From Chitinophagaceae bacterium (lineage in GTDB: Bacteria; Bacteroidota; Bacteroidia; Chitinophagales; Chitinophagaceae): 34,868 bases of DNA. The stretch is taken from contig JACSRW010000008.1 in assembly GCA_014879565.1 (NCBI GenBank), positions 1-34,868 on the forward strand, in the 5' to 3' direction. Below are positions 26,269-30,627 of this stretch, piece by piece (the first letter of the stretch is position 1; every line of letters starts with the position of its first letter). A program made the position numbers and the translations under genes. The notes beneath the pieces are model-generated. The model ran no database searches. It was given only the letters and a program-made list of their open reading frames with translations, and was not told where the DNA came from.

Positions 26269-28713
26269 TTATTTCCTGCTTGCCCGAATTATATCCGCAA
26301 ACACCCCGCTGGCCGTCACTTCCGCGCCGGCGCCGGCTCCTTTTACCACCATGGGTTGTTCTTTATAGCGGTTTGTATAAAACAGTACTACATTATCCTT
26401 TCCATAGAGGTGATAGAGGTCATGCTGCGGATCTATATGCTGCAAACCCACCGATGCTTTCCCGTTCTCAAATGAGGCGACAAACTTCAGTTTACAACCC
26501 GCTGCAACGGCTTTATCAAGCAGTTGTTTGAAATGCGCTTCTTCTTTTGCCATGGCCGCGTAAAAATCCTCCACACTGCCCTGCATACAGGAGGAAGGCA
26601 TAAAAGAGTGGTTGGTGATATCTTCCATTTCCATCTGGTGTCCGGCTTCGCGGGCGAGTATCATGATTTTCCGCATTACATCCGTTCCGCTGAGATCGAG
26701 CCGTGGATCGGGTTCGGTATAACCCTCTGCCTGCGCCTGGCGGACCACTTCCGCGAAAGGCCGGCTTCCGTCATAATGATTGAAAACGAAATTGAGCGTA
26801 CCGCTAAGTACCGCGAGCATCCGGTTGATTTTATCTCCGCTGCTAACCAGGTCGTTCAGGGTGGCGATAATCGGTAACGCAGCGCCAACATTGGTTTCGA
26901 ACAGGAAATGACAATTGTATTCCCGGGCCAGGTCTTTCAGCCGGCGGTAATTGCTGAAAGCGGAGGCAGCGGCTACTTTGTTACAAGCCACCACATGAAC
27001 GCTTTTTTGCAGAAGATCCGCATATACCGAGGCTACCCGGTCACTGGCTGTGACATCCACAAATATGGAATTACGCAGGTTCCGGCTGATTATTTCCTGC
27101 ACAAACTGATCCAGGTCTGCTTTCTCTCCCCCATCCAGCGCGGTCTTCCAGTCTGCCAGGTTAATGCCTTCTTCCTGTATCAGCATCTTACGGCTGTTGC
27201 TGATGCCCGCCACATTCACCTGCAGATGTAATTGCTCCTGCAGGAATGTCAGCTGTTGCTCCAGCTGACTGACCAGTTTAGCCCCCACATTTCCGGTACC
27301 GGTAATAAAGAGGTTGACCTGTTTGTACGAGGTTTCAAAAAATTCCTCATGCAGTACATTAATAGCTTTACGCACATCCCGGGTAGCTATGACCGCTGAA
27401 ATATTTTTCTCCGATGAACCCTGCGCGATGGCCCGTACATTAATCCCGTTACGGCCCAGGGCGCTGAACATCCGGCCGCTGATACCCGGGTGACTTTTCA
27501 TATTCTCTCCCACGAGTGCTACGATGGAAAGATCCGCTTCTGTATGCAGGGGTTCCACTTTCTGCAGGGCAATTTCATTGGCAAATGCCTGATCAACCGC
27601 CGCCTTTGCCCGAAGCGCTGATGCGCTGTCGATGCCCACACAAATGGAGTGTTCGGAAGAACCCTGGGTGATGAGGATAACATTTATTTTTTCCGCACTC
27701 AGGGCTTCAAAAAGACGTTTGGAAAAACCGGGAATGCCGATCATGCCGCTGCCTTCCAGGCTCAGCAGGGTGATATGGTTGATACTGGTTATACCCCTTA
27801 CTATATCTCCGTCCTTAGGAGATGCGGATTCAATCAGGGTTCCCTGATCACCGGGAGCAAAGGTATTTTTGATCCATACCGGAATCGCTTTTCCCATCAC
27901 CGGTTGTATGGTGGGCGGATAAATGACTTTTGCGCCAAAATGGGACAGTTCCATTGCTTCCTGGTAAGAGATCCGGGGGATAATCCGGGCATTACTCGCC
28001 AGTCGCGGATCCGCGGTCATCATACCGCTTACATCCGTCCATATTTCCAGTACAGATGCCTCTAAGGCGCCGGCGAGAATGGCAGCGGTGAAATCGGATC
28101 CGCCCCGCCCCAGTGTTGTGGTAATACCCTGTGCATCGGATGCGATGAAACCCGGTAAAATGGTAAGCCGTGCATCTGCAGCAGCAAAGTATTCCCGGAT
28201 CTGCCGGTTGGTTATGGTATAATCCACTTCAGCCGCCGTAAAAGCGGAGTTGGTACGGATCAGTTCACGGGCATCTTTCCAAACAGCCGGGGTGCCTCCG
28301 CTGTTAAAACGGGCGGCAATGAGCTGTGAGGAAAGCCATTCCCCGTATGAAGCAATCCGGTCCCGGGAACGGGCTGTCAGTTCGCGCAGGAGATAAATAC
28401 CATTACAGATATCTTCAATTTCATTACAGGCCTTTTTCACCAGGCTGAGCTGGGCACTCTGCCGGTCTACCGGCATTAATTGCTTCACGGTATCCAGGTG
28501 GCGCTGCTCCACGAGCAGGAGTTTTTCGCGGAAGGATTCATCCCCTGCTGCGGCCAGTGAAGCGGCGCCAAGCAGCAAATCCGTCACCCCGCCAAGAGCG
28601 GAGACCACCACCACGGCGGGCCCTTTTTGCAGCGTTTGTTCCACAACCTTCACAACTTTAGCAATATTGTCCGCATTTGCGACAGAAGTGCCGCCAAATT
28701 TTAATACCTGCAT
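26269..28713 (-). CDS. thrA: Bifunctional aspartate kinase/homoserine dehydrogenase
   Basis: An 814-residue fusion catalysing the first and third steps from aspartate to threonine. The kinase part starts MQVLKFGGTSVANADNI (KFGGTS motif) and includes TTLGRGGSDFTAAILAG. Tandem ACT regulatory domains cover about 310-460, with VALVGENMKSHPGISGRMFSALG. The dehydrogenase begins with the NAD(P) motif ITGTGNVGAKLV (about 468) and has the catalytic-region signature near SGTLNFVF and DPRLDLSGTDVMRK. The enteric ThrA homologue is inhibited by threonine through the ACT domains. The 245-base leader upstream encodes a Thr/Ile-rich peptide (28819-28908), so expression is probably controlled by threonine and isoleucine supply. 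Confidence 0.97.
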   Translation of the reverse strand: MQVLKFGGTSVANADNIAKVVKVVEQTLQKGPAVVVVSALGGVTDLLLGAASLAAAGDESFREKLLLVEQRHLDTVKQLMPVDRQSAQLSLVKKACNEIEDICNGIYLLRELTARSRDRIASYGEWLSSQLIAARFNSGGTPAVWKDARELIRTNSAFTAAEVDYTITNRQIREYFAAADARLTILPGFIASDAQGITTTLGRGGSDFTAAILAGALEASVLEIWTDVSGMMTADPRLASNARIIPRISYQEAMELSHFGAKVIYPPTIQPVMGKAIPVWIKNTFAPGDQGTLIESASPKDGDIVRGITSINHITLLSLEGSGMIGIPGFSKRLFEALSAEKINVILITQGSSEHSICVGIDSASALRAKAAVDQAFANEIALQKVEPLHTEADLSIVALVGENMKSHPGISGRMFSALGRNGINVRAIAQGSSEKNISAVIATRDVRKAINVLHEEFFETSYKQVNLFITGTGNVGAKLVSQLEQQLTFLQEQLHLQVNVAGISNSRKMLIQEEGINLADWKTALDGGEKADLDQFVQEIISRNLRNSIFVDVTASDRVASVYADLLQKSVHVVACNKVAAASAFSNYRRLKDLAREYNCHFLFETNVGAALPIIATLNDLVSSGDKINRMLAVLSGTLNFVFNHYDGSRPFAEVVRQAQAEGYTEPDPRLDLSGTDVMRKIMILAREAGHQMEMEDITNHSFMPSSCMQGSVEDFYAAMAKEEAHFKQLLDKAVAAGCKLKFVASFENGKASVGLQHIDPQHDLYHLYGKDNVVLFYTNRYKEQPMVVKGAGAGAEVTASGVFADIIRASRK

Positions 28714-28810
28714 GATCTCTGAATTATTTTTTACGTCTGAATAATAAATGTTCTCTTAAATCTTAGTTGATTTCTTACAGCAAACTGCCCGTGGGGTGAT
28801 ATGACAAAGT

Positions 28811-28830
28811 ACAATCCCTTACGGGATTGT
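28811..28830 (-). promoter_or_regulatory. Hairpin over the end of the thr leader peptide
   Basis: On the minus strand: ACAATCCC, loop GTAA, GGGATTGT, a perfect 8-bp stem, extendable by GACA/TGTC across a 4-base bulge. The loop contains the leader peptide stop codon TAA. A ribosome finishing or stalling on the Thr/Ile codons would open it. An alternative pairing of CCCGT with ACGGG (28786-28790) is possible. No T-run follows, so it is not a standard terminator. Confidence 0.6.
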
Positions 28831-28908
28831 TGTCGTAATGGTAATAATCGTGCTGTTGGTAACCGGTACCAGTGTAGAAGCAGTGATATGATAGTAATTA
28901 TTACCCAC
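28819..28908 (-). CDS. Putative threonine/isoleucine leader peptide of the thr operon (thrL-like)
   Basis: A 29-codon frame between the murQ stop and thrA. It starts at GTG (28908-28906), the only usual start codon after an in-frame TGA at 28920-28918, and ends at TAA (28821-28819). The peptide contains eight Thr and five Ile; the last ten residues are TIITITTTIP. Enteric thrL peptides have the same kind of Thr/Ile run, and translation speed over it reports charged tRNA levels. The stop codon lies in the loop of a perfect hairpin (28811-28830). The thrA start is 105 bases further on. Weak points: a GTG start, partly inside another inverted repeat (28903-28926), and no U-tract terminator before thrA. 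Confidence 0.72.
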   Translation of the reverse strand: MGNNYYHITASTLVPVTNSTIITITTTIP

Positions 28909-28926
28909 CTGAAAATTTCAGTGGGT
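28903..28926. repeat. Inverted repeat just after murQ, overlapping the leader start
   Basis: ACCCAC and TGAAA pair with TTTCA and GTGGGT with one bulged base. On the minus strand it lies 33 bases after the murQ stop and covers the GTG of the leader peptide. It could be a weak murQ terminator or hide the leader start; no T-run supports the first. Confidence 0.45.
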
Positions 28927-28958
28927 GCAAGATACGTTTCACAAACGGTAAAATAAAA

Positions 28959-29774
28959 TTATGAGGCAAGAGAATCTGCCGCTTTTTTCACGCTGCCGTA
29001 TTTCAGTAATAACTCTTTGGCTTTTTCATAGTCATTACTGCGGATGCGCTCCATGAGCATACGGGTACCGCGATCAACCAACTTATCGTTCGTTAGTTGC
29101 ATGTTCACCATTTTATTATCTTCCACCCTTCCCAGCTGAATCATCACGGTGGTGGAGATCATATTCAGTACAAGTTTCTGAGCGGTTCCGCTTTTCATCC
29201 GGGTGCTGCCGGTTACAAATTCCGGACCCACCACCACTTCAATCGGGAAGTCGGCCGCCGCGCTTACCGGCGCCCCGGGATTACAACTGATACTCCCGGT
29301 AATGATTCCTCTTTTACGGCATTCTTCCAGTGCCCCGATTACATAGGGTGTGGTACCGCTGGCCGCAATACCGATTACCACATCTTTATCCGATACCTGG
29401 TGGACCTGCAGATCCTGCCAGCCCTGTTCCCGGTCATCTTCCGCGAACTCCACCGCGGACGTAATGGCTTTTTCGCCTCCGGCAATGATACCGATGACCA
29501 GCCCGTAGGGAACCCCGTAGGTAGGAGGACATTCACTTGCATCCACAATGCCCAGCCGTCCGCTTGTTCCGGCCCCGATATAAAACATTCTTCCCCCCAT
29601 CAGCATTTTATCTGCGGCCACTTCTGCCAGTTTCTCAATCTGGGGTATTGCTTTTTCGACGGCAGCCGGTACTCCCTGGTCCTCTTTATTGATATTGCGG
29701 AGCAATTCTCCGACCGTCATCTTTTCAAGGTGCCGGTAAAGACTTGCCTGTTCGGTAATTTTCTGAAATGACAT
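28959..29774 (-). CDS. murQ: N-acetylmuramic acid 6-phosphate etherase
   Basis: A 271-residue SIS-domain enzyme that cleaves the lactyl ether of MurNAc-6-phosphate to give GlcNAc-6-phosphate, in cell-wall recycling. The family signature GAGTSGRLGIVDASECPPTYG is present, here split as GAGTSGRLGIVDA and SECPPTYG, with the acidic residues of SECPP and AVEFAEDD where catalytic Glu residues lie. TGSTRMKSGTAQKLVLNMI is the second signature. The frame is open to 29801, but that would overlap the kinase gene; the ATG at 29774, ten bases after the kinase stop, begins MSFQKITEQ, the normal N-terminus. It is coupled to the kinase. Confidence 0.95.
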   Translation of the reverse strand: MSFQKITEQASLYRHLEKMTVGELLRNINKEDQGVPAAVEKAIPQIEKLAEVAADKMLMGGRMFYIGAGTSGRLGIVDASECPPTYGVPYGLVIGIIAGGEKAITSAVEFAEDDREQGWQDLQVHQVSDKDVVIGIAASGTTPYVIGALEECRKRGIITGSISCNPGAPVSAAADFPIEVVVGPEFVTGSTRMKSGTAQKLVLNMISTTVMIQLGRVEDNKMVNMQLTNDKLVDRGTRMLMERIRSNDYEKAKELLLKYGSVKKAADSLAS

Positions 29775-29784
29775 AATGGGTTTT

Positions 29785-30627
29785 TTACCGGTGATAGTCA
29801 ATCAAACCCTCCATCGGGTTTTTCATGACTTTGCCGAGTTCAAATTCGTAACTGGCGCAAAGTTGCTGCAAGACATCTTTAAATCCAAATGCGACACCGC
29901 CGGCAAAATGAATGGGATGGTTCCAGGACTCCCGGTACTTACACAGGTGCTGAAAGAAAAAATCGTTCAGCCCGTCTTCTATGATATTCTCAATCATATA
30001 ATGTCCCCGGTTTTCCGCCAGGAAGCGGGCAAATCCGGCAAGGTAGCGGTTGGGCAATGGTTTTTTATAAACATGCTCCAGTATCTCCGGTGCATTGGTC
30101 ATATACGTCAGGTCAAACCGGCCGCGCAGTTCATCATCAAATGTACCGTAGAGATAATATTGTATGACCTTTTTCCCCAGGTAGGCGCCGCTGCCCTCAT
30201 CTCCCAGTACATAGCCCAGTCCCGGACTGTTCCGGACAATTTTTCTTCCGTTAAAAAAACAGGAATTAGATCCGGTTCCCAGGATACAGGCCACCCCCCT
30301 GCTATGCCCGCAAAGCGCCCGGGCAGCACCCATCAGGTCATGTGTTACTTCGGCATGGCTGCCGGGAAATGCTTTCTGTAAGGCTTTCTGAACCGATCTG
30401 GCATTAGCCGGATTGGCGCAACCTGTACCATAATAATAAATCTCGTTAACGGTAACATTTTTAAGGGCGGGAAGTAATTCTTTTGACAGCAGGGCATATA
30501 TCTCCTCTGTGCTCAGGAAATAAGGACTGATCCCCTGCGTGAAGATGGTTTTCTTTCTTCCGTTCCGGATCAGGCACCATTCCGCTTTGGTGGCACCGCT
30601 GTCGGCAATCAGTTTTACGGGAGCCAT
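29785..30627 (-). CDS. BadF/BadG-type N-acetylhexosamine kinase (likely MurNAc/GlcNAc kinase)
   Basis: A 280-residue sugar kinase of the ASKHA fold. The first phosphate motif is IADSGATKAEW (Asp9 to Lys14); THDLMGAARAL carries the second acidic site; ACILGTGSNSCFF is the adenosine-side loop; LGDEGSGAYLGKK is the family signature. Relatives phosphorylate GlcNAc or MurNAc. It lies directly upstream of murQ (10 bases), so it probably supplies MurNAc-6-phosphate to MurQ. Bacteria lacking the MurP phosphotransferase transporter need such a kinase, which fits Bacteroidota (inference). It is divergent from the S41 peptidase gene. Confidence 0.88.
   Translation of the reverse strand: MAPVKLIADSGATKAEWCLIRNGRKKTIFTQGISPYFLSTEEIYALLSKELLPALKNVTVNEIYYYGTGCANPANARSVQKALQKAFPGSHAEVTHDLMGAARALCGHSRGVACILGTGSNSCFFNGRKIVRNSPGLGYVLGDEGSGAYLGKKVIQYYLYGTFDDELRGRFDLTYMTNAPEILEHVYKKPLPNRYLAGFARFLAENRGHYMIENIIEDGLNDFFFQHLCKYRESWNHPIHFAGGVAFGFKDVLQQLCASYEFELGKVMKNPMEGLIDYHR

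Follow-up and report, generated by a model that had tools for sequence, protein, structure and literature searches.

In enteric bacteria, thrL encodes a short Thr- and Ile-rich peptide, and RF00506 is the Rfam entry for this threonine operon leader. The Bacteroid-trp RNA, in turn, holds a Trp leader peptide. This RNA (RF01692) is listed as a cis-regulatory RNA of Bacteroidetes in the part of PMC2864571 cited here; it had no match in any of the 19 genomes searched (0/19), the genome studied here included. A survey of 2010 describes leader-peptide systems as known in Proteobacteria and Actinobacteria only and adds Firmicutes (PMC2965389, passage cited). From within the phylum, amino-acid operons of Flavobacterium psychrophilum are reported to show strong signs of leader-peptide attenuation upstream (PMC9723704, pertinent passage), and sORFs reminiscent of leader peptides are mentioned for B. 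thetaiotaomicron in that of PMC7366714. The F. psychrophilum proposal is of the same kind as the thr leader described below and likewise concerns amino-acid operons; it differs in that the word threonine is absent from the main text and no structure is given in the relevant passage. As far as the sections consulted extend, the open-access literature yielded no account of a Thr leader from this group, and a comparative review of attenuation from 2010, cited in PMC4833913, may cover Bacteroidota. It is therefore not certain that the distribution of the Thr leader is new to the literature.

The window, that is, the whole stretch of 34,868 nucleotides analysed here, contains an unannotated leader peptide ORF on the minus strand (MGNNYYHITASTLVPVTNSTIITITTTIP, 28819..28908) with a GTG start, 29 codons, and a TAA stop. 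The peptide has eight Thr and five Ile, and its final ten residues, nine of which are Thr or Ile, form a run of candidate control codons (TIITITTTIP, 28822..28851, minus). From the TAA it is 105 nt to the ATG of thrA (26269..28713, minus), the first gene of thrABC, an 814-aa ORF that NCBIfam names bifunctional aspartate kinase/homoserine dehydrogenase I. The gene order is murQ (N-acetylmuramic acid 6-phosphate etherase), leader, thrA, thrB (homoserine kinase), and thrC (threonine synthase). A first-pass annotation of this DNA had described the frame with exactly this start, length, composition, and terminal run, and had placed it directly before the ThrA fusion gene and nowhere else in the window. 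All of this was borne out: the frame is present in the mechanical list of ORFs, the run in its translation, and only 4 of 47,631 stop-free 10-codon windows (six frames, whole window) hold at least eight Thr or Ile, all four belonging to the leader run. A search of positions 28000-30500 against the whole of Rfam at E ≤ 5 returned one meaningless match (E 3.5) and otherwise none, and hence no match to RF00506 and no T-box near thrA. Like enteric thrL, the leader encodes a Thr/Ile-rich peptide directly before a fused ThrA and thrBC, with the control codons near the stop. Unlike thrL, it lacks a canonical terminator, its stop codon lies inside a conserved hairpin, and a conserved linker and a GGGC element follow.

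To compare related loci, one genome per species was scanned with the ThrA of the window, and the best 80 of more than 590 loci were retained, which makes this a non-random sample; the named ones are mostly Chitinophagaceae, and many others are unclassified Bacteroidota MAGs. A counterpart of the leader precedes thrA in 75 of these 80 loci, with its stop 64-143 nt (median, 96 nt) before the gene; together with the window, these are the 76 sequences referred to below. The cultured relatives Terrimonas ferruginea DSM 30193 (L019) and Niastella populi (L038) are among the carriers. Within the 500 nt upstream of thrA, scored for the window and for 79 of the loci (80 regions, without L066), at least 8 Thr or Ile codons in 12 were found in 61 of the 80 regions, compared to 0/80 reverse strands and 2/400 dinucleotide shuffles. 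Five of the 76 sequences score 6 only; since the controls often reach that value (16/80 reverse strands and 96/400 shuffles score 6 or more), these five are counted for their conserved downstream module and not for the score. A chance codon run, for which the shortness of the frame and its GTG start speak and nothing more, is refuted by these counts, and its probability is negligible; the first-pass annotation had likewise judged chance unlikely. In codons −12 to −4 before the stop, which are mostly outside the terminal hairpin P1, the fraction of Thr plus Ile is 0.72 in frame and 0.03 and 0.02 in the other two frames (76 sequences, 684 codons). All four Thr codons are used in the run (ACA, 115; ACT, 96; ACC, 85; ACG, 19). 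Furthermore, codon pairs with a single difference are synonymous in 4850 and non-synonymous in 3704 cases, a ratio of 1.31 versus 0.43 expected for uniform change, which is descriptive because the sequence pairs are non-independent. The Thr/Ile run with synonymous changes that had been proposed as a check upstream of the thrA genes of relatives is thus present, and the frame is retained in 75 of the 80 loci where its absence or free breakage in close relatives would have spoken against a leader. Synteny of murQ and thrA was considered as the cause of the conservation and rejected: murQ is found upstream (within 2.5 kb) in 19 of the 80 loci and the leader in 75.

An in-frame ATG, GTG, or TTG lies 17-45 codons before the stop in all 76 sequences, which by itself is often expected by chance. 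With the start chosen as the ATG or GTG nearest to 29 codons, and TTG taken solely where neither is present, the 76 starts are GTG in 44 cases, ATG in 24, and TTG in 8, and they lie 23-38 codons before the stop. GTG and ATG interchange at about the same position, and this supports the GTG start of the leader in the window. Bacteroidota promoters have a −7 element of the TAnnTT type in their consensus, and a −7-like element of this type, TATCTTG, is found 26 nt before the GTG (28928..28934, minus); transcription may start near 28921. All but one of the sequences (75/76) have TAnHTTN no more than 45 nt ahead of the chosen start, compared to 51% of shuffles, and the distance from TA to the start is 20-28 nt in 63 of these 75, with a peak at 25-26 nt. 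The segment ACCCACTGAAATTTTCAGGTGGGT (28903-28926) is predicted to fold over the GTG start codon; transcription from near 28921 would remove part of the 5′ arm of that hairpin.

The end of the frame coincides with a hairpin, P1 (ACAATCCC-GTAA-GGGATTGT, 28811..28830, minus), in which the last Thr/Ile/Pro codons form the 5′ arm and the UAA stop lies in the loop. A typical P1 in relatives reads ACAACCC-GTTAA-GGGTTGT, again with the stop codon in the loop; P1 scores 18.2, compared to 9.6 in shuffled sequences, and in 73 of 76 sequences the stop starts inside the loop or directly next to it. On alignment A1, which holds 75 of the 76 sequences (L012 was left out; its module is nearly the same as that of L014), 89.5% of the P1 cells are paired, compared to 29-48% for slid controls. 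Two-sided changes in P1 number 15 versus 3.6 in shuffles, all 15 at one pair (ACC to ATC), and the numbers of changing pairs and of pair types do not exceed those of shuffles (equalled or exceeded by 496 and 499 of 500 shuffles). By eye, the variant stems ATCCGC/GCGGAT and CCCTC/GAGGG add further covariation. P1 involves the control codons and is in this respect a 1:2-type hairpin, with a placement like that of the 1:2 hairpin of classic attenuators.

Downstream of P1, a conserved linker, CATATCACC (CATATYACC; 28795..28803, minus), follows at a distance of about 7-11 nt in relatives, with the conservation C.84, A.98, T.98, A.98, T.89, Y, A.88 (76 sequences). A copy of the linker motif, CATATCACT (28882..28890, minus), lies inside leader codons 7-9, so that CATATCAC stands as a direct repeat at 28882-28890 and 28795-28803. 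The best score for such an upstream copy is at least 6 in 61% of the 76 sequences, compared to 22% of shuffles; in many relatives the copy is found about 38-44 nt after the promoter-like element. The linker is followed by GGGC (28787-28790), the GG of which is near-invariant. A conserved RNA or DNA element serving as a binding site for a protein or a ligand, with the Thr/Ile frame being incidental, would account for the conservation of linker and GGGC as sequence outside the frame and for the recurrence of CATATYAY upstream, where 19 of the 76 best matches are in another reading frame. However, the amino acids of the run are conserved while the third codon positions vary, and the module has strong matches only at sites before thrA; we consider this explanation very unlikely.

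Two small hairpins come next. P2 (GGCA-GTT-TGCT, 28779..28789, minus) starts in the GGGC; its GGC pairs with GCT in 47 of 76 sequences and with GCC in 8 (55/76 in total), and its overall score, 9.2 versus 8.6 shuffled, is barely raised. P3 (AAATC-AACTAA-GATTT, 28758..28773, minus) is weak and variable in relatives and scores 11.4 versus 9.6 shuffled (71/76 sequences). The fold of the window also has a small hairpin, P0 (TGGTA/TACCA, 28857..28871, minus), in the coding part. In an anchored permutation test of pairing between 2721 pairs of sequence windows (73 sequences; L012, L038, and L061 were omitted as near copies), P3 ranked first (z = −4.85, the best of all 2721 pairs), and the region of P0 ranked second (z = −4.25). 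P1 itself reached −2.6 in this test, which is within chance for 2721 tests, and its arms hardly vary; the start-codon region with the Thr run reached about −3.1, likewise within chance for that number of tests. No conserved pairing partner was found for the linker in the same test, which likewise gave no support to a pairing between the linker and the GTG start region; this pairing, attractive by eye, was dropped. P2 and P3 were also considered as a thermodynamically stable domain, an idea that was abandoned with a mean z of −0.41 versus mononucleotide shuffles; on the grounds of covariation, the two are retained as putative, weak elements.

In the same genome, the histidine and tryptophan operons have leaders of the classic form. 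A His leader, MRTHTHMHHHHLLLQG (L184, contig C42), precedes hisG at locus 1501, and a Trp leader, MKRIQTNKLWWWHTTLKGL (L203, contig C1, frame end at locus 2814), precedes an ORF that reads as trpE and has counterparts in all three other loci looked at (3/3); each is followed by a GC-rich hairpin with a T tract. His-rich frames with terminators were present in 9 of 9 his loci looked at in the family, the own genome included. The thr leader resembles these two in its control codons, in a stop near a pairing region, and in the short distance to the first gene, and differs from both in the missing GC-rich terminator with T tract. When one rule for a canonical terminator was applied throughout, it was satisfied by 9 of 9 his leaders (all nine loci recovered in the family) and 4 of 4 trp leaders (taken from 4 of 10 genomes with trpF), in each case including the own genome. 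By the same rule, 9 of 76 thr leaders pass, marginally and each through P1 itself, and the leader in the window fails. Nor was a conserved antiterminator found between leader and thrA among the 2721 window pairs, a search in which short or non-anchored pairings could be missed. The enteric-like mechanism that the first-pass annotation implied is therefore not supported as it stands, and the leader as such is less unexpected than that annotation had it, since the own genome has His and Trp leader peptides and since a flavobacterium has been proposed to use leader-peptide attenuation (PMC9723704, passage cited).

A weak terminator may still exist, since P1 of the window counts as terminator-like in a looser pattern scan and since a terminator-like score of at least 12 is reached downstream of the linker in 14% of sequences compared to 7% of shuffles. 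In such ordinary attenuation, P1 (or P3) would be a weak intrinsic terminator, and a ribosome stalling on the Thr/Ile codons would keep it from acting. The nine leaders that pass the stricter rule do so by way of P1, as this explanation would have it; P3 covaries, and the number of T residues in the 10 nt after P3 is raised, at 3.76 versus 2.96 (measurable in 41 of 76 sequences). On the other hand, the bases just after P1 are A/C-rich, with T in only 3%, 28%, and 41% of sequences at positions 1-3, and the rule that recovers the his and trp terminators is blank in 67 of the 76 thr leaders. We consider a weak intrinsic terminator rather improbable. Alternatively, the leader may act on the translation of thrA or on the stability of its message, with the position of the ribosome altering the access of ribosomes or RNases to the 5′ end. 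That most thr leaders are without a canonical terminator and that the leader stop is 64-143 nt (median, 96 nt) away from thrA would be in line with this idea, although windows around the thrA start pair with the leader no better than z = −2.3, which is chance for 2721 tests. Control at this level is, to our minds, unlikely as well.

Sensing of Thr and Ile by the translating ribosome is by far the best reading of the locus, given its position, its composition, the synonymous change, and the association with thrA. We assign a probability of roughly 70% to a thrL-like leader by which ribosomes would signal to thrABC how much charged tRNA-Thr and tRNA-Ile is available. As judged from the sequence comparisons, the frame is very probably translated and responsive to Thr and Ile, and P1 is probably the switch. 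Of the proposal in the first-pass annotation, a hidden Thr/Ile leader of thrABC, the leader itself thus stands on strong grounds, with the run, its synonymous change, the frame, the start, and the stop hairpin all conserved, whereas the mechanism known from enterics does not. In this reading, sensing would be as in thrL, and the output step may be pausing, Rho, translation, or a weak terminator. In our model, a shortage of Thr or Ile would stall the ribosome in the codon run, where it would cover the 5′ arm of P1 and keep P1 open. With both amino acids plentiful, the ribosome would reach the UAA and depart, and P1 could fold behind the RNA polymerase. Folded P1, together with the linker and GGGC, would then slow or end transcription ahead of thrA in some way that does not involve a canonical intrinsic terminator; as a first guess, this may be hairpin-dependent pausing plus Rho, and a ribosome stalled on the Thr/Ile codons would prevent the pause or the Rho-assisted stop at P1/linker/GGGC. 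We hold this output step only tentatively, and prefer it, without regarding it as probable, to an effect on thrA translation or to weak intrinsic termination. The model has a weak point: a ribosome that stalls late in the run would mask P1, and so would one that waits at the UAA. Because a ribosome at the UAA would also cover P1, timing must matter, and the sign of the switch is ambiguous. No counterpart of the pair of 2:3 and 3:4 hairpins of classic attenuators was found in the thr leader. It is imaginable, with somewhat less than even odds, that P1 and CATATYACC/GGGC form an undescribed, Bacteroidota-type pause/Rho signal and thereby a terminator-less attenuator beside the classic his and trp attenuators.

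A genome that combines two classic attenuators with a putative third lacking a canonical terminator offers a clean setting for the study of how gene output is coupled to ribosome position in Bacteroidota, and the candidate promoter, the start codon, and the hairpin of the thr leader can all be tested. Screens for premature intrinsic terminators, such as that in the cited part of PMC2965389, would tend to miss leaders of this type. The findings extend leader-peptide control of the thr operon, at the strength given above, to the Chitinophagaceae and to two or more further families of the class, all distant from the enterics, with a different downstream RNA.

To determine how specific the module is, a covariance model, R1, was built from alignment A1 and run on whole genomes. 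In the order (119 genomes), R1 matched 8 of the 11 family members listed at E < 1e-7, and the window and the seven matches opened (L092-L098) are all located before thrA; of the weaker matches (E above 1e-5), none of the 28 opened (L099-L120 and L121-L126) is a Thr/Ile leader. In the class (295 genomes), six matches were obtained at E ≤ 1e-4, all six before thrA and two of them in other families (L252 and L253); L254 and L255 were left out of the analysis. Stricter filters were used in these order and class scans; the counts are lower bounds, and because of these filters, absence from the large scans is no proof. Within the genus, a ThrA match at E ≤ 1e-100 is present in 14 of 29 genomes, and 12 of these 14 carry the module close upstream of thrA (rows L240 and L244, with a misplaced thrA start, were disregarded in one step of this comparison). 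In the other two, the leader MILFDLHIHPTITTTPR has P1 and a diverged linker (G205), and thrA lies at a contig end (G008). The 15 genomes without ThrA gave one weak R1 match (E 0.006), and 14 of them none at E ≤ 0.01; these 15 include all 12 genomes of 1.5-2.1 Mb. A member of the family (G031, L139) has ThrA and no visible leader.

A peptide scan of 25 full-length thrA loci from the order, all outside the family, found no Thr/Ile frame. Among 11 thrA loci of the class, it found one clear Thr/Ile leader, MYNSTIIITIIITTGRNLAEE (L166, genome G166, from another family of the class), which precedes a fused ThrA as in the window. This leader differs from that of the window in that a canonical terminator, AAGAAGCCTTCCTCATCCAGGAAGGCTTTTT, follows it, and R1 has no match there. 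Three further loci of the class (L158, L160, and L162) have Thr-containing frames that end in a hairpin and are followed, by eye, by CATAT or TATAT; they were not counted, since R1 matched L158 at E 1.1 in another register and missed L160 and L162. A module shared with leaders for other amino acids was considered and rejected. The pattern CATATYAYCN{1,5}GGGC matches the own genome six times, once at thrA, and the five other matches, none with a visible leader frame, lie within coding DNA or next to it. R1 has no match at the his and trp loci, and in six of twelve leuA loci, those inspected, no leucine-rich frame directly precedes the gene.

The five loci that do not contribute to the 76 sequences differ among themselves. 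One has only 107 nt upstream of thrA (L066), and another has thrA without a leader (L081). L082 retains the module (locus 2236-2300) 258 nt before thrA, next to a frame with four Thr only, and represents a natural decoupling of the codon run from the hairpin. In the remaining two (L054 and L070), thrA has no leader and lies behind genes that read, from their translations, as ilvC and ilvA; genes of the Thr and Ile pathways are joined there in one apparent operon (locus 1-2500).
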